Of a stretch of DNA of 22,167 bases, positions 7,288 to 21,600 are shown piece after piece; positions within the stretch are counted from its first letter, which is position 1, and every line of letters begins with the position of its first letter. Origin of the DNA: a virus; the IMG/VR virus record IMGVR_UViG_3300042673_002329, positions 1 to 22,167 of that record; one strand, written 5' to 3'. Made by a program: the position numbers and the translations under genes. Under the pieces are notes generated by a model. It was not told the origin of the DNA and searched no databases. It saw only the letters and a program-made list of their open reading frames with translations.

Positions 7288-7540
7288 GCAGCAACCTCCA
7301 TTCATCGGCGGTAAAATGCATCCGTGTCACATCGCGGCCAACCCGCTGATAGACAAGACGCGCACCGCAAGCCTTGCAACATTCAATCACATCGCCAAAC
7401 GCCGAAACACCCTCAAGATTGAGCAAACTCTCGTCTGCGCGAGCGGCCTCGCAGCACCAAACCTCTTTCTTCTGCAAGAACAGCCGCCAAATCGTCGCGA
7501 CAACGACAATCACGGATATCGCTGCGGAAACCCAAATCAT
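7136..7540 (-). CDS. Membrane-anchored small protein, unknown
   Basis: The 134-residue frame starts with ATG overlapping the RecA-type gene stop (ATGA), a strong sign of coupled translation. Residues 2-22 (IWVSAAISVIVVVATIWRLFL) form a membrane helix, followed by a positive QKK, so the rest should be cytoplasmic. Cysteines at CC (29-30) and ECCKACGA (about 53-58) could bind metal. The C-terminal third is Arg/Glu-rich and overlaps the Hjc-like nuclease gene in another frame for about 150 bases, so its composition is constrained by that gene. No family is recognised. The start is well supported. The functional extent of the C-terminus is doubtful. Confidence 0.65.
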   Translation of the reverse strand: MIWVSAAISVIVVVATIWRLFLQKKEVWCCEAARADESLLNLEGVSAFGDVIECCKACGARLVYQRVGRDVTRMHFTADEWRLLRGKVPTEGFRSAHRVAARARGVRGKAPEREASGREREQHLREGGCDPEDD

Positions 7541-8751
7541 GCGAGCATTTTAGCCCGAAGAAGGGCCGTGATACGCGCCCACTCTCTAGGCTCCTGCATG
7601 GCCTCAATCGCTGCCTTCTTGCTCGTAAAGGTCTGCATCCCAAGGTTCCATTTCACGCCGTCTTTGGCAAGTTCACCGAACCGCTCGCAAAGGCTCACAT
7701 ACAGGTTGACCTGATCAATTGTGCCATCATCAAGCACCATTGAATAACTGCCCTTGCCTTTGGGCGGAGCGGTCTTGTTCTTCTCAATGCTGAAATTGAT
7801 CCGAACCGACTTGGCCTTCTGCAGATCTTTCTCGTCGCCACCTACGCTCTCGACATCCTCGATCTCGTAGCCGTTTGACCACAATTTGACCTCGCACGAT
7901 GAGACAAATCCTTGGCCCATTCCGCCCGGCATGGTTTCAGGATTGCCAAACATTACGCCGATCTTCATCCGCAACTGGTTGATCCACAACTGCGTGGGAA
8001 CCCGCCCGAAATCACGACCAACCGAATTCACGCTGCTCTGCGTCTTGCGGCAAAATTTGTTCAGCAGCCGCGCCTGCAAACCCTGCTGCCACTTCTCCGT
8101 CGATTCCTCGACCTCTTTGCTCGGTGTCATCGCCGCAAGCGAGTCCAAGATAAACAGGTCAACAGCACCTGTGCGCATCAGGCTATCGTAAATGTCGATG
8201 CCCTCCTCCGCCGTATCGGGCCGAACATAAACGATCAGCCGATCGTCTAGGCCAAGCGTTGCAGCCCACCGCTTGTCGTATGCGCCCTCGTAGTCGAACA
8301 ACGCGACCCGAAACTCCTCGTAACTATTCGCAGCGTAACCGCGAATCCTAGCCGCATACTCGTCCTTCTTCTCATCAGGATACTGCCTCGGAACGAACAG
8401 ACCCTTCGTGTAACAATCGCAATTGCCCTCTTGGTGCCAAGTGATCTCGCCCGTAGCCTCGTTCTCCTCCTCGACCACCACCGTCTCCACCTTCCGCAAG
8501 CAGTGGGCGCACAATTTCTGCGCGTTGCCTGCCGTCCGATAAGCCGTGGTCGTTTTGCCGCTGCTCTTATCGCCGTAAAAGATCGTCGTCCGACCAACAG
8601 GCAAGCCTCCGCCAAACGCGATATCAAGCGATAAACTGCCTGTCTCAATGCGCGGAATCACCATGTGACGCACGCCGATTCCAAGCGTCCCATCGCCATG
8701 CTTTTTGTCAACGGAAGTGGCAAGCCGCTTCAATGCATCCAATCTACTCAT
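7537..8751 (-). CDS. RecA-type recombinase with a cysteine-rich insertion
   Basis: This 404-residue strand-exchange ATPase has Walker A GDKSSGKT (60-67), a RecA-like segment VALFDYEGAYDKRWAATLG, Walker B VDLFILDSLAAMTP (about 198-210) and the L2-like region before INQLRMKIG. Between the Walker A helix and the next strand lies an extra block of about 65 residues (81-146) with CAHC and, about 27 residues later, CDC, a likely zinc-binding hairpin absent from cellular RecA. It should form filaments on ssDNA coated by the phage SSB. ATG at 8751 has AGAGGTG six bases before it. Upstream in-frame codons overlap the cysteine-rich mini-gene and are rejected. The C-terminal domain after residue 330 is short and phage-specific. 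Confidence 0.9.
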   Translation of the reverse strand: MSRLDALKRLATSVDKKHGDGTLGIGVRHMVIPRIETGSLSLDIAFGGGLPVGRTTIFYGDKSSGKTTTAYRTAGNAQKLCAHCLRKVETVVVEEENEATGEITWHQEGNCDCYTKGLFVPRQYPDEKKDEYAARIRGYAANSYEEFRVALFDYEGAYDKRWAATLGLDDRLIVYVRPDTAEEGIDIYDSLMRTGAVDLFILDSLAAMTPSKEVEESTEKWQQGLQARLLNKFCRKTQSSVNSVGRDFGRVPTQLWINQLRMKIGVMFGNPETMPGGMGQGFVSSCEVKLWSNGYEIEDVESVGGDEKDLQKAKSVRINFSIEKNKTAPPKGKGSYSMVLDDGTIDQVNLYVSLCERFGELAKDGVKWNLGMQTFTSKKAAIEAMQEPREWARITALLRAKMLA

Positions 8752-8905
8752 AGTACACCTCTGTAATGCAACGGCAGTAGCCCTGACAGCGCGGGCAACT
8801 GCAATCTTTGCCATCGGCCTCTTTGCTGCAGGAACACTGCTCAAAATAAAGCAGACACGACCGACACAATGGGCCTCCGTTGCCCTGCTGCGGATCGGTT
8901 GGCAT
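8744..8905 (-). CDS. Cysteine-rich mini-protein coupled to the RecA-type gene
   Basis: This 53-residue frame starts with ATG fused to the preceding stop (TGATG) and ends eight bases inside the RecA-type gene. It holds nine cysteines: LCRSCLLYFEQCSCSKEADG, followed by DCSCPRCQGYCRCITEVYYE. The pairs CxxC, CxC, CxCxxC and CxC suggest one or two bound zinc ions or an Fe-S site. An internal TTG at 8869 with CGGAGG upstream would give a 41-residue form that keeps every cysteine. Overlap on both sides and the high cysteine content argue that it is a true gene. Placement suggests an accessory to recombination, but nothing in it reveals a function. Confidence 0.7.
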   Translation of the reverse strand: MPTDPQQGNGGPLCRSCLLYFEQCSCSKEADGKDCSCPRCQGYCRCITEVYYE

Positions 8906-10088: not shown

Positions 10089-11573
10089 CTAAATGCATCC
10101 AATCTCTTTGTAAAATGCAAGCCTACGGCGGTGGCTGTTCATCAGCCGCGAAACATTCTCGTCCACCACATCGACCACGATAGGGTGAGGCTTACCCTCG
10201 CAAACGCCTGCCCGCCAAGCACACAAATGTTTGCACTTTGTATCGCTCGGTTTGCAGTGCCGCCTAACGCGACCAATCGCCTGCTCTGCGTCGCCAATCG
10301 GAGTAACAAGCACCAACACATCAATTGCTGGAATATCTAGCCCTTCCTCGATCATCTGCTTCGTCGCCAAGACAACATTTGCCCGCTCTGCCTGCTTCAA
10401 ATCGTCTTCAGTTCTCGTCCGTTTGCGCGGGTTTCCCTTCGCGTCAACGCCGCCAGAAAACCACTCTCCTGTGTAGCAATCGATCACAGGCTCAAACGGA
10501 AGATTCATTCGCAGCAGAATACCTGCGATCTCCTTTTCGAGAATCCGCAAATGGCCAAGCCGTTCGCTGACAACCATCACCTTGCGGCCCTTCGCCACGG
10601 CCTGCGCAATTTCATCCGAAATCATTTTGTTCCGCAACGGATCGTTGACCAACTGCGTGACGATCTGCGTATGGCTCAACTTGTCCTCTGCAACCACCTT
10701 GCCGCGCATCCGAACAGGACTCATCCTGATCAGGGTTTTTAGACGCTTCAGAGAAGGCACGATTGCGTTTGTCTTGGCTGAATAAAGAATATCGCCAATG
10801 TGGTGGTAGAAAACATCCTCGGCCCCGTCCTTGCGGCGCGGAGTAGCCGTCAAACCAAGCCGATACTTCGCCTTGAAGCGGGGAATGATATCCGACCAAG
10901 TCTGCGCACCAACCCGATGGCATTCGTCGGAAATCACCAATCCAAATGCTTCGTAGATTTCTTCAGGATATTTTTTCCCGTCCTCGTCGTCTCGCGCAAT
11001 CGATTGCAGCATCCCGATCACAAAATCGCAATCCGCATATTCGCAGATTCCCTGCTGAATAATTCCGATGCGGGCATCAGGCATGAATTCCTTGATCCGC
11101 TCGATCCACTGCCGCAAGAAAAACTCCTTGTGGACTAAGATCAAGGTTTTGCGGCCCACCTGACGAGCGAACTCCAAAGCGACATTTGTCTTGCCGAAAC
11201 CACAACCTGCCCGAAGGATGAACCCGCCCCACGGATTGTCCTCCGTGTAACGCACCATCGTATTGATTGCCTCGCCCTGCTCTGCGTATGGGCCTTCAAA
11301 CCGCATTTTCGTGGCAAACGGGCGCATCGGATGGCCCTCTGCGACCATCACGGCCTCCTCATGAACCTCGCGACGGTTCTTTAGATAAAAACCGCGAGGC
11401 AACCCGATCCAACGATCGGTCTCTTTGTAGAGCAAAATGGGAAGCGGAACATCGTTCGCAAATTCGCTATTCACAACGGGCAGAACCGTTAGTTTCTTGC
11501 GAAGATTGGAAACCTGATGAGGCTCCATCTTCGATTTGTCGAGCCAGACCCGACCGTCTACTTTTACATTCAA
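10089..11573 (-). CDS. SF2 DNA helicase, UvsW/RAD25-like
   Basis: This 494-residue helicase has all main SF2 motifs: Walker A AGCGFGKT (122-129), Ia TLILVHKEFFLRQW, motif II SDECHR (DECH at 216-219), motif III GLTATPRRKDG (240-250), and motif VI QAIGRVRR (431-438). An N-terminal domain of 100 residues precedes it, as in UvsW, which rewinds forks and branch-migrates recombination intermediates. After motif VI comes a four-cysteine block (Cys440, 447, 451, 458) that may bind metal. The start is TTG, with AGGGG six bases upstream and about 24 bases after the predicted transcription start. No better ATG exists before the conserved N-terminal region. It is the first gene of the recombination unit. 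One repeat copy lies inside it. Confidence 0.9.
   Translation of the reverse strand: MNVKVDGRVWLDKSKMEPHQVSNLRKKLTVLPVVNSEFANDVPLPILLYKETDRWIGLPRGFYLKNRREVHEEAVMVAEGHPMRPFATKMRFEGPYAEQGEAINTMVRYTEDNPWGGFILRAGCGFGKTNVALEFARQVGRKTLILVHKEFFLRQWIERIKEFMPDARIGIIQQGICEYADCDFVIGMLQSIARDDEDGKKYPEEIYEAFGLVISDECHRVGAQTWSDIIPRFKAKYRLGLTATPRRKDGAEDVFYHHIGDILYSAKTNAIVPSLKRLKTLIRMSPVRMRGKVVAEDKLSHTQIVTQLVNDPLRNKMISDEIAQAVAKGRKVMVVSERLGHLRILEKEIAGILLRMNLPFEPVIDCYTGEWFSGGVDAKGNPRKRTRTEDDLKQAERANVVLATKQMIEEGLDIPAIDVLVLVTPIGDAEQAIGRVRRHCKPSDTKCKHLCAWRAGVCEGKPHPIVVDVVDENVSRLMNSHRRRLAFYKEIGCI
10993..11007. repeat. CGCGCAATYRATTGC repeat, copy 3
   Basis: The plus strand is CGCGCAATCGATTGC, the third copy with the perfect GCAATCGATTGC palindrome. 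It lies within the SF2 helicase gene (codons for Gln-Ser-Ile-Ala-Arg). Confidence 0.7.
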
Positions 11574-12195: not shown

Positions 12196-12969
12196 TTAGT
12201 AGTCTACATCGTCGTCGCTGAACTTGCCGCCCGCTGCAGGAGACGCGCCACCTGCGCCGCCCATCCCGCCGACCAGACGCGCAAGCGAGTCGTAGTCCTT
12301 TGGCGTGAAGGTCTTGGCGTAGTCGAACGGCTTGATGTCGAGGCTTGCCTCTGCCGCGCCAAGATTGAGCAGATACTCGGCCCAATTCTTCTTCGGAACC
12401 TTCTCGACAAACTCGAACTCGTCGCCAACCGACTCCACCTTCGCGCCGCTACGGTAGACATCCCAAACCGTACCGCTCAGATCGTTGCCATGCTTCTGCG
12501 CCAACCGCTGCAACTTCTTCAAAACGCCCGGCTTATCTTTGCCGCCGCGCTTTGCACCAAACAGGCTCTTACCGAACTGGTAGGTAACGCCCTTCTTGCT
12601 CGTCCAACCCGTCAACTTCACGCCGCCAGATCCATGCGTAACATCGCCCATGTCGATGACGCTGAAATAGCCCACGAAGGCTGACCACTGCTCTGCATCG
12701 CAGATCGGGCAACCCTTGTCGTCAATGTTGTTCTTCTTCAGGCAAACAACGCGATCTTTCGATTTGTTGATCCCGTAGAGCGAATGCTCGTACAGGCAAA
12801 ACGGCTCGCCATCGAGGAAGAGAACCCTCTTCGTCGCCCCTGCGGGCATCCAGAAGGTTCGCGGCCCAAAGTCCTTGTTGCCGCCGTTTCCGCCTGCGCC
12901 AGAAAACGGATCATCATCGATGTCCCATCCAGCCTTATTGCCACCAAACGCACTACCGAATCCACTCAT
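12196..12969 (-). CDS. Single-stranded DNA-binding protein, gp32-like
   Basis: This 257-residue protein matches the phage gp32-type group by layout. It has a Gly-rich N-terminus (SAFGGNKAGW, GAGGNGGN), then a domain with a zinc-site pattern: Cys58, His62, Cys76 and the CPIC pair (87 and 90), as in gp32 of T4. An OB-fold-like stretch follows with DKPGVLKKLQRLAQKHGNDL and WDVYRSGAKVES. A Gly/Ala linker and an acidic C-terminal tail (KFSDDDVDY) end it, as SSB tails do for partner binding. It should coat ssDNA for the helicase and recombinase. ATG has GAGGTAGAGC upstream. It is the first gene after the operator-bearing promoter, so its dose is probably regulated. Confidence 0.88.
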   Translation of the reverse strand: MSGFGSAFGGNKAGWDIDDDPFSGAGGNGGNKDFGPRTFWMPAGATKRVLFLDGEPFCLYEHSLYGINKSKDRVVCLKKNNIDDKGCPICDAEQWSAFVGYFSVIDMGDVTHGSGGVKLTGWTSKKGVTYQFGKSLFGAKRGGKDKPGVLKKLQRLAQKHGNDLSGTVWDVYRSGAKVESVGDEFEFVEKVPKKNWAEYLLNLGAAEASLDIKPFDYAKTFTPKDYDSLARLVGGMGGAGGASPAAGGKFSDDDVDY

Positions 12970-14308: not shown

Positions 14309-15469
14309 CTAAACCATACTCGGATACTCAAGCAGATCAAGTTTATTGGCCCTGTCAAACGAGCCGAGCATGACCGCAGGAGGCATCGTTTCCTGCACCT
14401 CTGCAAGCGTCAACGATCCGCCGTCTTTGCCATCGGCCACAGGGATTGCCTGCACCTTGATGTTGTAACGAGCGAAGAACAAACGCTCGACCTCGGAATT
14501 CATGATCTCGCCTGCCTTATCGCCATCGCCCATGACAAAGACCTTGTCCGTTCTTCGCGCAATCAATTGCGCCTGACCTGTTGATATCGAAGCACCCAAG
14601 ATCGCAACAGGATGACGCACTCCATGCCGCCAAAGATTCAGAGCATCGGTCGTGCCTTCGGTGATCACAATCGGCTCACCCTCAACATGACGCTCGATCC
14701 CAAATAGGTTGTCTCTGCGCCACGGCCCCGCATGGTGCTTGTATTTGGCATAAAAAGTGTTGCAGCCCCCGCAACGATGCAGCGTCTTGCCATCCGCGCC
14801 AACGATGATCGCCCCGCAACGAAAGCAGTGCGCACCCTCCCAACATAGTCTGGAAGTGTACCCAACAAGTTTGCGATCGACGCTCCGTATCGGATGAACC
14901 CAACGCCGCTCCTTCTCGTTGTACCCAAGCCCCCAAGCGCGATGAACATCCAAAAACCCACGATACAGAACATATTCTGGCGGCGGAGCGGCAATCCACT
15001 TGTTCATCAAATCTTCATCAGGCGGAAGATACTCAATCTGACCTTTCCGCACCACATCGGGAAACATTCTGGTCTGATCGCGGAAACCAGATTCGTCACG
15101 ACGCAAAACTGGCCCTGAACGAGAGAACTTTCCGCCTGCAGAATAATCCAGTTTGGAAACGGGAATCTTCTCGACATCGTCTTCAGGCTGATAGGCGAGC
15201 AAAGACGAACCAGAAACATACTCTGCACCTAGCGCGTAACCACGCCACAAAAGGCGCGGCAAATGCCCACGCTCGCCGCAGGAGAGGCACTTGTAGGTAT
15301 GACCTCCCCGCCCCTCAAAGACCGCGAAAGAAGGCCGACTGTCGCGGCCTGATCCATGCGTCCATCGTGCAAACGGGCAGGTCGCAATCAACTTGCCCCC
15401 GCGCCAACCCTCAACCTCTGATCCCAAAAGGCGCAACAACTGCTCTATTTCAATTCTGCGGTCGCTCAA
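14309..15469 (-). CDS. DNA primase, DnaG-type (CHC2 and TOPRIM)
   Basis: This 386-residue primase makes RNA primers for lagging-strand synthesis. The N-terminal zinc domain has CPFARWTH (Cys31, His38) and KCLSCGERGH (Cys61, Cys64). The TOPRIM domain has VITEGTTDALNLW (Glu271) and VMGDGDKAG (Asp315, Asp317). Between them sits a second zinc ribbon, CFRCG (215, 218) and RCGGCN (233, 236), which DnaG does not have. No helicase domain is fused. The next gene upstream supplies it. TTG is the start, sharing bases with the helicase stop (TTGA). GGGG lies upstream. The C-terminal helicase-contact domain is much shorter than in bacterial DnaG. One repeat copy lies inside the gene. Confidence 0.9.
   Translation of the reverse strand: MSDRRIEIEQLLRLLGSEVEGWRGGKLIATCPFARWTHGSGRDSRPSFAVFEGRGGHTYKCLSCGERGHLPRLLWRGYALGAEYVSGSSLLAYQPEDDVEKIPVSKLDYSAGGKFSRSGPVLRRDESGFRDQTRMFPDVVRKGQIEYLPPDEDLMNKWIAAPPPEYVLYRGFLDVHRAWGLGYNEKERRWVHPIRSVDRKLVGYTSRLCWEGAHCFRCGAIIVGADGKTLHRCGGCNTFYAKYKHHAGPWRRDNLFGIERHVEGEPIVITEGTTDALNLWRHGVRHPVAILGASISTGQAQLIARRTDKVFVMGDGDKAGEIMNSEVERLFFARYNIKVQAIPVADGKDGGSLTLAEVQETMPPAVMLGSFDRANKLDLLEYPSMV
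14556..14570. repeat. CGCGCAATYRATTGC repeat, copy 4
   Basis: The plus strand is CGCGCAATCAATTGC followed by GCC, so the CGC flank is partly present on both sides. It lies in the primase gene (codons for Gln-Leu-Ile-Ala-Arg). Confidence 0.6.
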
Positions 15470-16740
15470 AACGGAACCCCGTAACCCTTGGTATCGTAGT
15501 CGCCGTCCTTGAAATCTTTGTCATCGCCGTCCTTGGCGATCTCCTCAAAACGCATCCCGTCGAAATCCCAATGCACCTCAATAGGCTCACCATCGTGCGA
15601 ACCGCGCCGCAACTTGCCGACATGAAACTTCAGTCTGCGGTCTGCCTTCATGTCGGTATCCTGCTCCATGATGAACACCGCATGGGCATCCCATAGCAAC
15701 TGGTCAGATAGGGCAATCGCGCTCGTATCGTAGCCTCCGCCCTGCTTCTTATCCTTGGTCGCCTGCCTCGACAACTGGTGGAAAGCAACGAACGGAACAT
15801 TGTGCCGTTTCGCAGCCTGACGAATCCAGTCTACGGCCCGCATCGTTCGCTCCATTTTGTCTCCCTTGAAGCGGAGCATATAAATCGAGTCGACCGCAAC
15901 CAAATCTGGCTTCACCGCTGCAATCGCTATGTCCATTCCGTTAGGCGTAAGATCGTCCGTACTGTCAATGACATACACGCCGTCGTTGCCTTCCAAATCC
16001 TTGATCATTCCGAACAGTTTATCTTCGGCAAAACTCGACAACCGACCGCGAACAATATCGCCTGCCGATACGCCTGCCTGCACCACGAAGAACCGCTCGG
16101 CAATCTCGGATTTGCTCATCTCTGGCGAAATGATCAGAACCCGCTTCCCGCTGCGCCAAGTGTCCCGCGCAATCAATGTCGCAACCTGCGTCTTTCCAAC
16201 GCCCGGCCGAGCGACAAAATAGGTCGCCGTAGCAGGCCACAAACCCATCGTAAGGTCGGTCATCGTAGGCCAAGGCAAAGGCACGCCTGTGTAGCCTGCC
16301 TTGACCTTCAGGTAGGCCTCTTTGACGCTATCGCCTAACAAGAAAATGCTTGTTGGTGCTGCGCCTGTGGAAACGCCAACCTCAACCGCCGCAAAGTCCT
16401 TGATCATCTCAAGCGCAGCGTCAGGGTTGTTCATCCGCAACTGATCGCCGCTCTGATCAAGCAACGCGCTGATGCGACGATACATCGTCCGCTTCAACAA
16501 TTCGTGGATGACGAACGAAGATTCAAGCCCAAACCCGTCAAGGTCGAGGCCACAAATCGTTAGAACAGCACCAACGCCTGCAGGAACTTTGTGATCGTCA
16601 AAATGCTGCTTGATAAACTTGTAGGCTTTTCGGTGCTTTGGATCGTCCAACGAGGCAGGATCAAACCCTGCCGTCTCCAATCTCTCAACCACCGATCCGT
16701 CAACAGCAGCATGGAAGAGAACCGCAACTTCAATGTCCAT
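15466..16740 (-). CDS. Replicative DNA helicase, DnaB-like
   Basis: This 424-residue hexameric helicase has an N-terminal helical domain of about 120 residues (helical, with LLKRTMYRRISALLDQSGDQ) and a RecA-like motor. Walker A is ARPGVGKT (177-184), with IISPEMSKSE next (catalytic Glu207), Walker B PDLVAVDSIYML (278-289) and a sensor AFHQLSRQ (319-326). KLRRG-S near 375 fits the arginine-finger/DNA-loop motif. It unwinds the fork and recruits the primase encoded next, whose start overlaps this stop. AGAGGG precedes the ATG. The C-terminal tail is acidic (DGDDKDFKDGDYDTKGYG). The DnaC-like gene upstream is its probable loader. A partial repeat half-site is at 16168-16180. Confidence 0.92.
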   Translation of the reverse strand: MDIEVAVLFHAAVDGSVVERLETAGFDPASLDDPKHRKAYKFIKQHFDDHKVPAGVGAVLTICGLDLDGFGLESSFVIHELLKRTMYRRISALLDQSGDQLRMNNPDAALEMIKDFAAVEVGVSTGAAPTSIFLLGDSVKEAYLKVKAGYTGVPLPWPTMTDLTMGLWPATATYFVARPGVGKTQVATLIARDTWRSGKRVLIISPEMSKSEIAERFFVVQAGVSAGDIVRGRLSSFAEDKLFGMIKDLEGNDGVYVIDSTDDLTPNGMDIAIAAVKPDLVAVDSIYMLRFKGDKMERTMRAVDWIRQAAKRHNVPFVAFHQLSRQATKDKKQGGGYDTSAIALSDQLLWDAHAVFIMEQDTDMKADRRLKFHVGKLRRGSHDGEPIEVHWDFDGMRFEEIAKDGDDKDFKDGDYDTKGYGVPF

Positions 16741-16748
16741 AAAACCCT

Positions 16749-17348
16749 CTACTTCAAGATCGCACCGATCTCAGATTTAGCAGCCTCTCGCAGATCTTCT
16801 CCAGAAATTCGCATCGGATAAATGCACTCTTTCAGGCTGTGCATGGTCGATGATTTCAACTCCTCCTCAATCGCCTTCAAGGTCATGTTGGTCGTGATGA
16901 AGGTCACCCGCTTATTTGCGTTGCGGTGCCGAATCAACTCGTCCAACACCCGCGCTCCAAAACCTGTGCTGTCCTGCACGCCCTTGCCAAGGTCGTCAAT
17001 CAGCAGCACCTCAACGGTCTTTGCCCGTTCCCATAGCGTCTGCTCCTCGTCAAACATTTCACTGTTGATGACCGCGCCCTTGATCTCTGCGGCCTCAAGG
17101 AACAGCAGCGACTGACCGCGCCTGCGGTACTCCTTGCCAATCACCACCGAAAGGCTCGTTTTGCCTATCCCATTCGATCCCCAAAGCAGAAGGCCAACAC
17201 CTTTGGAGAGCATCTCCTCAATGTTGGCAAGATACTTGGTCGCAACTTCCCGAACCGATTCCTGAACACCATCCATCGATGCCGTCCAATACCGCTTCGG
17301 AACCCGCGCACGCAAAAGATCGTCTTTTGTTAATTCTCTTCTGTACAT
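16749..17348 (-). CDS. DnaC-like AAA+ helicase loader
   Basis: This 199-residue AAA+ ATPase of the DnaC/IstB type shows Walker A WGSNGIGKTS (56-65), Walker B VEVLLIDDLGKG (112-123) and sensor 1 TFITTNM (149-155). A C-terminal arginine (MRISGEDLRE) is in a position that suits the finger/sensor 2. It would open or deliver the DnaB-like ring onto DNA. It starts directly after the stop of the preceding gene (TAA then ATG) and ends eight bases before the helicase, so loader and helicase are made together. IstB transposition proteins share the fold, but no transposase is present. Confidence 0.88.
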   Translation of the reverse strand: MYRRELTKDDLLRARVPKRYWTASMDGVQESVREVATKYLANIEEMLSKGVGLLLWGSNGIGKTSLSVVIGKEYRRRGQSLLFLEAAEIKGAVINSEMFDEEQTLWERAKTVEVLLIDDLGKGVQDSTGFGARVLDELIRHRNANKRVTFITTNMTLKAIEEELKSSTMHSLKECIYPMRISGEDLREAAKSEIGAILK

Positions 17349-17882
17349 TTACCAGCCCGATTCTGGCGACCCGTCATCGGAACGGAATTCGTCCCGATTT
17401 TTAGGAGCAACAATCACAGTTTTTCCGTTCTGAACCTCGGCAAATATTCTCTCCCGCATCGACCAGAACAGATTCACCGTTGGCGCACCTGATAAGCGAC
17501 CGCGAGACTGCTGTACCATCTCGTTCCAGTTCGAGCAGTAGTATTCAACCGCAGATTTGACCAAATCTCGGCCATAAATCCCAAGAAGATCTTTCGCCAA
17601 CTTGCGCTGCTTCACAGTCCATTTTGGAACGATATAACCTGCCCCAAACAGATCTGCGAGGCCAACCCGAAACCAACGCTCAACATCCGTCGAGTTTGAT
17701 GGAATCTGCCGATCAGCCAATGGTGCCAGAAGCACCAGTGATTCAGGCGCAGCCGCAAATGGTGCAGGGGCCAGTTTGATCTTCTCCAAACGCCGCTCCG
17801 AGACCTCTTCCCGAACCCGCTGCGTGTTCTCAGATACCGTCCTGACCTTCGCCCTCAACGATGCCAACTTCTCTCTTGACAT
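17349..17882 (-). CDS. Hypothetical replication-unit protein
   Basis: This is a 177-residue protein. The first 60 residues form a charged coiled-coil-like helix (SREKLASLRAKVRTVSENTQ and REEVSERRLEKIK), then a Pro/Ala linker. The C-terminal domain (about 75-165) is helical with aromatic residues: DVERWFRVGLADLFGAGYIV, KQRKLAKDLLGIYGRDLVKS, YYCSNWNEM and VNLFWSMRERIFAEV. This resembles the helical domains of phage replisome organisers or helicase-loading accessories (DnaD/gp59-like role), but I cannot confirm a family. ATG at 17882 has GAGG six bases upstream. It directly precedes the DnaC-like loader, which supports a replication role by position. Confidence 0.7.
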   Translation of the reverse strand: MSREKLASLRAKVRTVSENTQRVREEVSERRLEKIKLAPAPFAAAPESLVLLAPLADRQIPSNSTDVERWFRVGLADLFGAGYIVPKWTVKQRKLAKDLLGIYGRDLVKSAVEYYCSNWNEMVQQSRGRLSGAPTVNLFWSMRERIFAEVQNGKTVIVAPKNRDEFRSDDGSPESGW

Positions 17883-18135
17883 GGGCAACCTCGAAATTGT
17901 GCTTCCAAAATAAAGCGTCGCCAACTTTGATGGCAACCCTCTGATAATCGTCCACTTTTCCCACGCACCGAGCGCGGATTTGATCCGTGAACATGATAGC
18001 GTCCGTGTCATCCATGGTCAAGATACAATCGCGCCAACTGACCACGCTCACAATGGTGCCGCAAGAGCCTCCGCTCCCGTCCCAAGTGGCCAAGTCGCCA
18101 ATCCTAAACTTTGTCACAGGCCCAATCAAATCCAT
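17830..18135 (-). CDS. Small SH3/KOW-like protein
   Basis: This 101-residue beta-rich protein has FRIGDLATWDGSGGSCGTIV, then SVVSWRDCILTMDD, then MFTDQIRARCVG. The pattern GD..tw.g....GTI..v..w resembles small SH3-like barrels (KOW or similar) that bind nucleic acid or protein. A second copy-like stretch is VAIKVGDALFWKHNFEVAHV. The ATG is taken as the most likely start. It overlaps the preceding gene by 32 bases and has no clear ribosome site, so translation may be coupled. Alternative starts are a GTG six codons later and a TTG twelve codons after ATG. It overlaps the following gene by 53 bases, which is long for this genome. Confidence 0.6.
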   Translation of the reverse strand: MDLIGPVTKFRIGDLATWDGSGGSCGTIVSVVSWRDCILTMDDTDAIMFTDQIRARCVGKVDDYQRVAIKVGDALFWKHNFEVAHVKREVGIVEGEGQDGI

Positions 18136-18520
18136 GCGACGCAAGATCGCGGTAAAGAATCTCTGCGCAAGGTACCATCCAAGCAGGCGTTTTCAACGCA
18201 GAAAGGCCCCAAACCCAACCCTCTGCGGCCATGATGCGGAGACATACCGCCTCGGCATCTGCCGCGCTTTCTAGGGGCATTTGATCAACCACGCAGCGCA
18301 TATGGGTAAGGTGGTAGGCCCACGATACCTCCTGCAAGACAGGGATTTTGATATCAACAGATAGGCCGTCCATGATCGGAATAGAAACAGACCGATCAGA
18401 AAAATCCATCCTAGATAGCGTCTCTGCGAAATCCGCAAGCACCATGTCATCAAAAGACGCAGGAACCGCATCCTGCGCCGCCTCTCTCCGCTTCAACGCC
18501 AACAACTTCAACCTGTGCAT
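18104..18520 (-). CDS. Hypothetical protein of the replication unit
   Basis: This 138-residue protein is unknown to me. A basic N-terminal helix (MHRLKLLALKRREAAQD) is followed by VPASFDDMVLADFAETLSR. Strands follow in SVSIPIMDGLSVDIKIPVLQ, and a helical C-terminal part contains MRCVVDQMPLESAADAEAVC and WVWGLSALKTPAWMVPCAEI. The ATG lies four bases after the KH gene stop, with only a weak GGCGG upstream. The frame is open for 64 more codons upstream, but these overlap the KH gene and are shadow sequence. It has no membrane helix. The Cys-Trp-rich C-terminus might bind a partner. No function can be stated. Confidence 0.7.
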   Translation of the reverse strand: MHRLKLLALKRREAAQDAVPASFDDMVLADFAETLSRMDFSDRSVSIPIMDGLSVDIKIPVLQEVSWAYHLTHMRCVVDQMPLESAADAEAVCLRIMAAEGWVWGLSALKTPAWMVPCAEILYRDLASHGFDWACDKV

Positions 18521-18524
18521 CGCG

Positions 18525-18815
18525 CTACCGCCGCTGAATATTCTTCTGCTCAGTGATGTAATCCAGATCAACCCTGATCCGATGCTTGCCGCCGTAGGCC
18601 GATAGCAGCCCACGGATCGAACTGATAACGCTGCCCTGCCGCCCGATGACCTGCCCGACATCGGATGCATCGGTATGCAACTCCACCAGAACGCGATACG
18701 ATGCAGGAACAACCGATACCTCGACCGATTCGGGGTTGTCCACGATGCTCGAAACGACCGATTTCAGAAGGATATGAATCCCGTCCAAAGTGTCCTGAGA
18801 GATGCTTTTTGACAT
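18525..18815 (-). CDS. KhpA-like KH-domain RNA-binding protein
   Basis: This 96-residue protein follows bacterial KhpA along most of its length: a helix LLKSVVSSIVDNPESVEVSV (17-36), a strand YRVLVELHTDASDVGQ, the GxxG loop VIGRQGSVI (Gly58 and Gly61), a helix SSIRGLLSAYG and a final strand HRIRVDLDYI. KhpA is a small type II KH protein that binds many RNAs, commonly with KhpB. Here the domain has an N-terminal extension of about 10 residues and a C-terminal polar tail of 10. It would bind phage or host RNA in the cytoplasm. The ATG is two bases after the previous stop. The ribosome site is weak. A KhpA gene in a phage replication operon is unexpected. Confidence 0.82.
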   Translation of the reverse strand: MSKSISQDTLDGIHILLKSVVSSIVDNPESVEVSVVPASYRVLVELHTDASDVGQVIGRQGSVISSIRGLLSAYGGKHRIRVDLDYITEQKNIQRR

Positions 18816-18817
18816 GA

Positions 18818-19153
18818 TTAGAATCCGAGATCAGTCTTGCGAATTGCGGCAACGGTAGCCTTACGATCCTGCTCCGATTCAAGGCTGTCACGGCTGCTGC
18901 CGTTGCGCTCCAAGGCCATCGTTACTCTGGCCCTCTCACGCGCTGCCTCAACCTCGCGGATCTTCGACACATTCGACCTATACAACCCGCGCAACATGGT
19001 TGCAATAGCAGGCGCGACCGACCCGTTCCGCTGCAGCGTTTCCTGCGCCCCCAAAACGGCTGATCGCCGCTCCCCCTTCATGACCGTAAGGAGAGCGGCA
19101 ATCAATTGCGCGACGGTAAGGCCGTCAGCCCCCGTCGAGCCCCTGCTAGGCAT
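18818..19153 (-). CDS. Small helical protein, unknown
   Basis: This is a 111-residue, mostly helical, basic protein. A hydrophobic helix with TVAQLIAALLTVM (about 13-25) is followed by KGERRSAVLGAQETLQR, then a long charged helix with VSKIREVEAARERARVTMAL and ERNGSSRDSLESEQDRKATV, likely a coiled coil. It starts with ATG inside the last codons of the DUF932 gene (eight-base overlap), with a poor ribosome site, so it is probably translated by coupling. The frame is open far upstream but only as a shadow of DUF932. One inverted repeat copy falls in its early codons. No family is recognised. Confidence 0.7.
   Translation of the reverse strand: MPSRGSTGADGLTVAQLIAALLTVMKGERRSAVLGAQETLQRNGSVAPAIATMLRGLYRSNVSKIREVEAARERARVTMALERNGSSRDSLESEQDRKATVAAIRKTDLGF
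19098..19112. repeat. CGCGCAATYRATTGC repeat, copy 5 (inverted)
   Basis: The plus strand reads GCAATCAATTGCGCG. The CGC flank is on the other side from the rest, so this copy is inverted (minus strand CGCGCAATTGATTGC). It is in the start of the helical-protein gene after DUF932. Confidence 0.5.
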
Positions 19154-20108
19154 ACTCGGCAAGCAACTGAACCGCTCGGCTGTTAAGGCCCGCTCCTGCC
19201 CCGAACATGATGTTCTCGAACCGCAGGCCGTCCTTGTGGCTCTTGACGGTCGAGTGATGCGTAGTGAATTCCGTGATCGCGTTGTACGCGCCCCACGCCG
19301 TTCCCTTAACGCCCGCAATGTCCGTCCCGATGCCGCCCTCAAAAAGGGCCGTCAATTCGCCCTTGATATTCTCGCGGCGCGTATTGAAGCCATCCCCCTC
19401 GGCCTTGTCGGGAATGAGCGAGTCGATGAACTTCAGCCATTCGGCGGTTCCCATCTTGATCTCGGTCAAGCGTCTGTGGAAATCCGCGCTGCGATCCGAG
19501 GCCTGCTTCGCAAGGCCAAGAACCCGCGCTGCCTCGCCAACCTTGACCTGCATATTGCGGGTATGGCGGATCGAAACCCCCTCGGCTGCTTTGGACGATC
19601 CAAGAGCCATCCGCGCCGTATTTGCGCAGACAACCCGAACCTCCGTCCAGAGAACCCGCAACGCGCTGCTGCCATCGTGGGCGTTGTAGAGCATGATGAA
19701 TTGGTCGACCCGATCGTTGGGCAGAATCTCGTTCGAACCGATCTGGCCAAGCAGCCAGACCCGCTGCCCGCCGCGAAGCGAGCCTGCGGTATGATACCGC
19801 ATCGAACCGTCATCGACTAGCGTATCCATGAAGGCGAAAGCGTCCATGTTCTGCATCGGCGTGTATTTCGCGCCGACAACCCCAAGGATCGCGTCGTCCG
19901 TATTGCGGCGTACCGCAACATGGCTTTTGATCGGGAATCGGCCACCCATGCCGTCCGTTGCGAAGATCGGCGTCTTCGATACCGACCAGTCCAACCCGCT
20001 CTCCTGCAAGGCAGTCGCGCTGTCGACATTCTGCGCCCCGACATAGGTTCCCAACCCATGCCACGGTACTTCTCCGCTGTACATCATCGTCTCAATCTCG
20101 TGTGCCAT
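19146..20108 (-). CDS. DUF932 phage/plasmid-like protein
   Basis: The 320-residue protein matches the DUF932 family (phage/plasmid-like protein) in length and N-terminal signature: MAHEIETMMYSGEVPWHGLG, with the conserved PWHGLG. Further family features are VGAKYTPMQNMDAFAFMDTL, a GGQRVWLLGQI strand, a VVCANTARMAL strand and helix, and a late block with KGTAWGAYNAITEFTTHH. Members occur widely on phages, plasmids and integrative elements, often near replication or recombination genes. No biochemical activity is established to my knowledge. It is the first gene after the promoter at 20174-20201 and has GGAGGAGG four bases before ATG, so it should be strongly translated, consistent with an early gene. 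The long plus-strand open frame over it is a shadow. Confidence 0.9.
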   Translation of the reverse strand: MAHEIETMMYSGEVPWHGLGTYVGAQNVDSATALQESGLDWSVSKTPIFATDGMGGRFPIKSHVAVRRNTDDAILGVVGAKYTPMQNMDAFAFMDTLVDDGSMRYHTAGSLRGGQRVWLLGQIGSNEILPNDRVDQFIMLYNAHDGSSALRVLWTEVRVVCANTARMALGSSKAAEGVSIRHTRNMQVKVGEAARVLGLAKQASDRSADFHRRLTEIKMGTAEWLKFIDSLIPDKAEGDGFNTRRENIKGELTALFEGGIGTDIAGVKGTAWGAYNAITEFTTHHSTVKSHKDGLRFENIMFGAGAGLNSRAVQLLAEYA

Positions 20109-21099: not shown

Positions 21100-21600
21100 T
21101 TACCACGGGATGTCATCATCCGAAAATCCAACGCTCTTTCTCTCAAAATTTGAGGCATTCGCAAGGACGGCTTTCAACCTGTCGTTTCGCATAATCCGCC
21201 GAATGCGGAACTGATCGCCGCCCTTCCCTTCGGTTGCGGCAATCCGCTCATGCAGCGTGACAAAATTGTTCACAAACTTGGCAATCCAAACAAGCGTCTG
21301 GGCCTTTGCCTCGGAAACGCTGTCAAAATTGTCCTCAAACAGCAGAACACCATCGTAGTAAATCGATGCCCTTGCACCAGATACATCCTCGACCTTGGTG
21401 AACCGAACATCAATGCCGCTGATGGAATGAACCTCATCGAAACTATATCTGGAGTCCGAATCAAAATCTTTGCCAATCTCGTCGTCGTTCAAACTCATCG
21501 CAACCTCCATCAACCAGACCGCATGAACCAAATCGTGCGGCAAACCAACCCGAAACTTGTCAGAAAACAACGCCAATATCTGACGAAGATCATAGATCAT
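21100..21600 (-). CDS. Unknown protein ending in an SSB-like tail
   Basis: This 166-residue acidic protein has a helical N-terminus (IYDLRQILALFSDKF, DLVHAVWLMEVAMSL), a beta-rich middle (SISGIDVRFTKVEDVSGA, ASIYYDGVLLFEDNF) and a long helix SEAKAQTLVWIAKFVNNFVT followed by LHERIAATEGK. The last residues, VGFSDDDIPW, closely resemble the DDDIPF tip of bacterial SSB, which binds many repair and replication proteins. ATG shares bases with the previous stop (ATGA). A second ATG at 21495 has GGAGG five bases upstream and would give a 131-residue form, so two starts are possible. No catalytic motif or known family is seen. Confidence 0.72.
   Translation of the reverse strand: MIYDLRQILALFSDKFRVGLPHDLVHAVWLMEVAMSLNDDEIGKDFDSDSRYSFDEVHSISGIDVRFTKVEDVSGARASIYYDGVLLFEDNFDSVSEAKAQTLVWIAKFVNNFVTLHERIAATEGKGGDQFRIRRIMRNDRLKAVLANASNFERKSVGFSDDDIPW

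Follow-up and report, generated by a model that had tools for sequence, protein, structure and literature searches.

A gene for a single-domain KhpA-like protein is consistently present in the replication operon of one clade of large tailed phages

In one clade of large tailed phages, the replication operon consistently includes a gene for a KhpA-like protein. We give a probability of about one half to the reading that its product is a phage-owned, single-domain RNA binder of the KhpA type, as predicted from its family, which acts together with the replication proteins. KhpA is a small bacterial RNA-binding protein whose best-studied role needs KhpB. Study of a widespread viral KhpA branch set in replication operons, where a viral KhpB appears to be missing, could help to establish the role of KhpA alone, and also whether post-transcriptional regulators are encoded by phages themselves. 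The gene was analyzed in a 22-kb IMG/VR fragment, the whole of which is referred to below as the window.

Identification of the protein

The interval 18525-18815 represents a single complete open reading frame of 96 codons plus stop, read on the minus strand from an ATG at 18815 to a TAG at 18527-18525. The plus-strand frame across it is closed, and the preliminary description of this DNA had given no strand. The encoded protein of 96 amino acids (MSKSISQDTLDGIHILLKSVVSSIVDNPESVEVSVVPASYRVLVELHTDASDVGQVIGRQGSVISSIRGLLSAYGGKHRIRVDLDYITEQKNIQRR) carries a type II KH domain, and the GxxG loop noted in that description is intact, as G-R-Q-G at residues 58-61 (18633-18644, minus strand). In a Pfam scan, KH_KhpA-B (PF13083) matched residues 16-84 with an E-value of 3.3e-16 and 59.4 bits against a cut-off of 32.1, and was the sole family over its cut-off; Jag_N and R3H were absent from the 96 residues, so that the KH domain stands alone. 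KhpA was also the top PDB sequence match (phmmer E 9e-8, profile E 4e-14), and the homology to KhpA proposed earlier is thereby borne out. Similarly, 36 of 36 viral KhpA-like sequences match KH_KhpA-B at E <= 0.001. Three NCBIfam KhpA-type models match the window protein at E 1e-12 to 1e-13, but the scores of 48-51 bits lie well under the equivalog cut-offs of 85-106 bits, and we therefore describe the protein as KhpA-like rather than as a strict equivalog.

Predicted fold

The AlphaFold2 model of the window protein has a pLDDT of 92.7. Its predicted secondary structure (helix 7-24, strands 32-37 and 41-47, helices 50-57 and 59-77, strand 81-87) corresponds to type II KH topology, with the GxxG loop located between α2 and α3. 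A Foldseek search with the model returned KhpB structures and uS3 at the head of the list. In VIA-align 2, where rows less than 1 apart count as tied, the top match was RNA-bound Thermus KhpB (9lri; Z 10.5, rmsd 4.1, 89 residues), narrowly ahead of uS3 (Z up to 9.7). The profile search and the structure prediction, both suggested as checks in the preliminary description, point to the KhpA family and to a modeled KH-II fold, respectively. The model gives the fold as KH-II, and it is the sequence that decides the predicted identity as KhpA rather than uS3. The uS3 identity was rejected because KhpA is a far better sequence match, the protein is only 96 residues long, and KH_KhpA-B is its sole Pfam family over the cut-off.

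Gene organization around khpA

The window holds genes for portal, terminase, ParB-like, RuvC, PDDEXK, RecA, helicase, primase, DnaB and DnaC proteins, all of them on the minus strand. Upstream of khpA are a gene for a DUF932 protein (19146-20108) and, directly adjacent with a 2-nt gap, gp18818 (18818-19153), whose conserved, basic and predicted helical product has a C-terminal D[LV]G[FI] and belongs to no known family. Directly downstream is the weakly conserved gp18104 (18104-18520), together with the small conserved gene gp17830 (17830-18144) and the conserved gp17349 (17349-17882, probable ATG at 17882), which stands just before the gene for a DnaC-like helicase loader (16749-17348). Genes for a DnaB-like replicative helicase (15466-16740), a Toprim DNA primase (14309-15469), a conserved protein with an acidic C-terminus that is SSB-like by sequence alone, with no Pfam match (12196-12969), a ResIII-type helicase (10089-11573) and a RecA-like recombinase (7537-8844) follow on the same strand. 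The location in a replication operon, claimed in the preliminary description, is thus confirmed.

PDB searches with profiles of gp17349 and gp18818 yielded nothing convincing, and a known family was not found for gp17349, which is conserved before the DnaC-like gene throughout the clade and also in more distant phages with no khpA in the flank. The gp18818 model has a pLDDT of 74.5 and structural matches all at Z <= 4.5, a comparison that excludes nothing; its product is a possible partner of KhpA. C-termini resembling SSB tails are present in gp21100 (21100-21600, minus strand; ...GFSDDDIPW) and in DnaB (...YGVPF), and these could be shared docking tails. PADLOC gave zero matches for khpA and five neighboring genes, and no Rfam RNAs or tRNAs were found in the window.

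Conservation of the locus in viral relatives

Queries with a single sequence (window KhpA, DnaB or DUF932 alone) found none or one distant viral locus, and alignments were needed. A search with a KhpA alignment identified 59 viral loci. Relatives of the window protein, 41-58% identical, are found in viral contigs of 41-195 kb, placed between DUF932 and the DnaC-DnaB-primase-SSB-helicase-RecA genes. For instance, six loci (L010-L015) share, whole or in large part, the order DUF932-gp18818-khpA-gp18104/gp17830-gp17349-DnaC-DnaB-(primase)-SSB-like-ResIII-MerR-RecA. In the more distant L062, khpA is likewise beside helicase-loading genes, and replication genes are present in the khpA flank of L040/L041 and L068. 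A seventh record of 113 kb, G041, was reached via its terminase (58% identity) and not via KhpA; it carries khpA, which together with gp17349 adjoins DnaC on the opposite strand. L002 was rejected as a relative, since DUF932 is all that it has in common with the window and KhpA is absent from its record.

As a less biased test, 40 viral loci were fetched in a scan with a DnaB alignment. Where DnaB was at least 41% identical and upstream DNA was present, khpA was found in 11 of 11 loci, with gp18818 as its adjacent upstream gene in 10; six of the 11 were already known via KhpA, and five (L091, L096, L097, L100 and L118) were reached without it. At DnaB identities below 38%, KhpA was in the flank at L098 and L104 only. 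L089, the closest relative (DnaB 74%), ends about 1.2 kb before DnaB, which makes its missing KhpA uninformative. This pattern of linkage indicates that khpA is fixed in the replication locus of one clade, and not in such loci generally.

The phage origin assumed in the preliminary description is upheld by these relatives, which lie in viral contigs with conserved phage synteny, and for the window clade bacterial contamination is rejected on that ground. In two small, unannotated INPHARED contigs that were inspected (L007, L008), KhpA is indeed accompanied by bacterial genes, rimM and trmD among them, but the window itself holds terminase, portal and replication genes, ribosomal protein S16 was present in 0 of 32 records, and RimM, TrmD and Ffh are absent from the loci, so these are not bacterial khpA neighborhoods. 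We give practically no credence to khpA being bacterial DNA in a viral assembly. When genomes were scanned for the clade pattern, a search limited by that pattern, three ordinary bacterial KhpAs were returned and zero clade members in bacterial genomes.

Conserved residues and selection

Across 43 viral KhpAs, the first glycine of GxxG and the cleft arginine R68 are invariant (43/43 each), and loop position 2 is basic (K or R) in 42. The preliminary description held that loss of the GxxG loop in relatives would speak against its proposal. Such loss is marginal: 41 of 43 sequences still have the last glycine, which is replaced by alanine (GxxA) in two, the L012 lineage and L097, both of them members of the window clade, in which GxxG is retained in 9 of 11. 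The residue directly after GxxG is S, A, Y, H or T here and basic in many KhpAs, and the net charge is about zero. After β3, Y-[VI]-T-[ED] occurs in 11 of 11 clade members, with a preceding D in 10; in the window protein this motif is D-Y-I-T-E, codons 85-89 (18549-18563, minus strand), and DY[VI]T[ED] was not seen in the remaining aligned viral KhpAs outside the clade. Two close pairs show purifying selection (dN 0.011/dS 0.10 and dN 0/dS 0.056). The clade is monophyletic, with support of 98/91, in a tree built on 61 short rows whose deeper branching order is not resolved.

By eye, we take R68 and L70 to be the probable equivalents of pneumococcal R59 and I61. In work on pneumococcal KhpA, R59 is described as directed into the RNA cavity and I61 on α3 as governing dimerization; the I61F change abolishes homodimers and leaves KhpB binding intact, and a change to GDDG abolishes function (PMC6403258). 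The dimer-residue position is hydrophobic throughout the viral KhpAs (L, V, I or F, with A in one), so dimerization with itself or with KhpB is possible. F is found at the I61-equivalent position in 6 of 11 clade members, and positions 63/64, two and three on from the dimer position, hold small residues in the clade (A/S/T and A).

Distribution among phages and prior literature

Among 50,697 phage records searched with three KhpA queries, one credible phage gene was found, gp147 of Tunturi_5, a jumbo phage of 309 kb with an Acidobacteriota host. It is annotated as hypothetical, and the words KH domain and RNA-binding are not present in the main text of the Tunturi_5 paper (PMC11924767). The other matches are unannotated metagenomic or wastewater contigs. 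No paper on a phage KhpA was found in the literature searched, the window protein falls in no PHROG, and a single weak PHROG match (E 0.0016) was obtained in total among 36 viral KhpAs, all of which agrees with the earlier remark that such proteins have had little attention. The viral KhpA branch appears undescribed, though the protein family is known. About 60 viral KhpA loci were found in all; almost none of them is in an annotated phage collection, and PHROGs have next to nothing that represents them.

A second coherent viral KhpA group (L017, L019-L021, L023, L025, L027, L028, L030-L032, L048-L050 and L057-L059) is found on contigs of 45-317 kb; most of its members end in VNVFNKP, and the replication genes of the window are not nearby. 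The KhpAs of L036, L060 and L063/L066, on contigs of up to 427 kb, have long arginine-rich or proline-rich C-terminal tails that are probably disordered. A 195-kb phage record holds a second KhpA copy (L084 8075-8680; G003:C1 near 125164), a single open reading frame with a KH domain and then a hydrophobic, transmembrane-like segment, located downstream of PDDEXK, RuvC and gp4337 genes.

Proposed function

The constant place of khpA beside the DNA-copying genes of these large, uncultured viruses makes it probable that they handle RNA, or single strands, while replicating. As a predicted RNA binder, the window KhpA would dimerize through helix α3 and bind short ssRNA stretches in its GxxG cleft, by analogy with its family. 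Its targets may be the transcripts of the phage or RNA intermediates, on which it would work alongside the replication proteins in the early phase of infection. It could influence their stability or translation, as the preliminary description suggested, or RNA present at replication forks. This action would be independent of a phage KhpB, and no such protein appears to be present in these phages. R3H domains of the KhpB type were looked for in 16 phage records and in Tunturi_5, and none exceeded the cut-off, which makes a phage KhpB unlikely there, though most of the records may be incomplete and could have left one out. More tentatively, and with rather more doubt than belief, we propose that a phage-specific KhpA subfamily, fixed in the replication operon alongside the conserved helical gp18818 as its partner, is a core factor coupling RNA handling to DNA replication in this large-phage clade without any KhpB, with related KhpAs recurring in other large and jumbo phages.

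Several features count against an RNA role, namely the net charge near zero, the altered residue after GxxG and the GxxA of two clade lineages. In addition, ssDNA can be a ligand of KH domains, and all neighbors of known function act on DNA. The KH domain could instead serve as a replication factor that works with gp17349, DnaC and DnaB and contacts ssDNA or RNA primers, either at the origin of the phage or at the fork. The constant place of khpA by helicase-loading genes, L062 included, its linkage to DnaB in 11 of 11 loci, the replication genes flanking it in L040/L041 and L068, and the ssDNA binding reported for some KH domains (PMC6403258) are consistent with such a role. We nevertheless consider it unlikely, if worth serious attention, as khpA in G041 is on the strand opposite DnaC-DnaB, most phages with a DnaB less than 38% identical have no khpA in the flank, and the closest family is RNA-binding.

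A lower probability is assigned to a takeover of the host, in which phage KhpA would take the place of its host counterpart in the KhpA-KhpB complex, thereby redirecting or blocking it; the preliminary description had raised this as competition with host KhpA for KhpB. The hydrophobic dimer residue would permit this, the F at the I61 position in 6 of 11 clade members recalls I61F (PMC6403258), and R3H proteins are encoded in both bacterial genomes checked that hold a KhpA-like gene; the small residues at 63/64, however, mean that F may still suit a homodimer, and fixation in the replication operon suggests a core role. Quite improbable, in our view, is a role apart from nucleic acids, with the KH fold as a dimerization or adaptor module, for example for gp18818 via the DYxTE tail. 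The adjacency of gp18818 in 10 of 11 loci, the clade-specific motif, GxxA in two lineages and the near-zero charge would suit an adaptor, but nine of the 11 clade members retain GxxG and every one the cleft arginine, which speaks against it.

Comparison with known systems

The KH domain of KhpB/EloR/Jag (PDB 9lri, 9lrg, 3gku) is the best structural match to the window protein (Z 10.5), but the latter, with 96 residues only, is without Jag_N or R3H. The KH domain of ribosomal protein uS3 shares the KH-II fold with the window protein (Z up to 9.7), but its sequence match is far weaker (E 2e-4 against 4e-14 for KhpA) and the window protein is without the S3 C-terminal domain. Among phages, gp147 (XOB77590.1) of the Tunturiibacter phage Tunturi_5 is likewise a single-domain KhpA, encoded in a complete jumbo phage genome, yet it is about 30% identical and lies outside the window clade.

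Like the window protein, bacterial KhpA, such as that of Streptococcus pneumoniae (PDB 7xqc, chain KhpA), is of similar length and consists of one KH-II domain with GxxG, a cleft arginine and a hydrophobic dimer residue. In contrast, the window protein is about 30% identical to the sequences compared, scores below the NCBIfam equivalog cut-offs, has another residue after GxxG, and bears at its C-terminus a DY[VI]T[ED] motif and a predicted helix in addition. Bacterial khpA stands beside rimM and trmD, whereas the khpA of the window resides in a phage replication locus.
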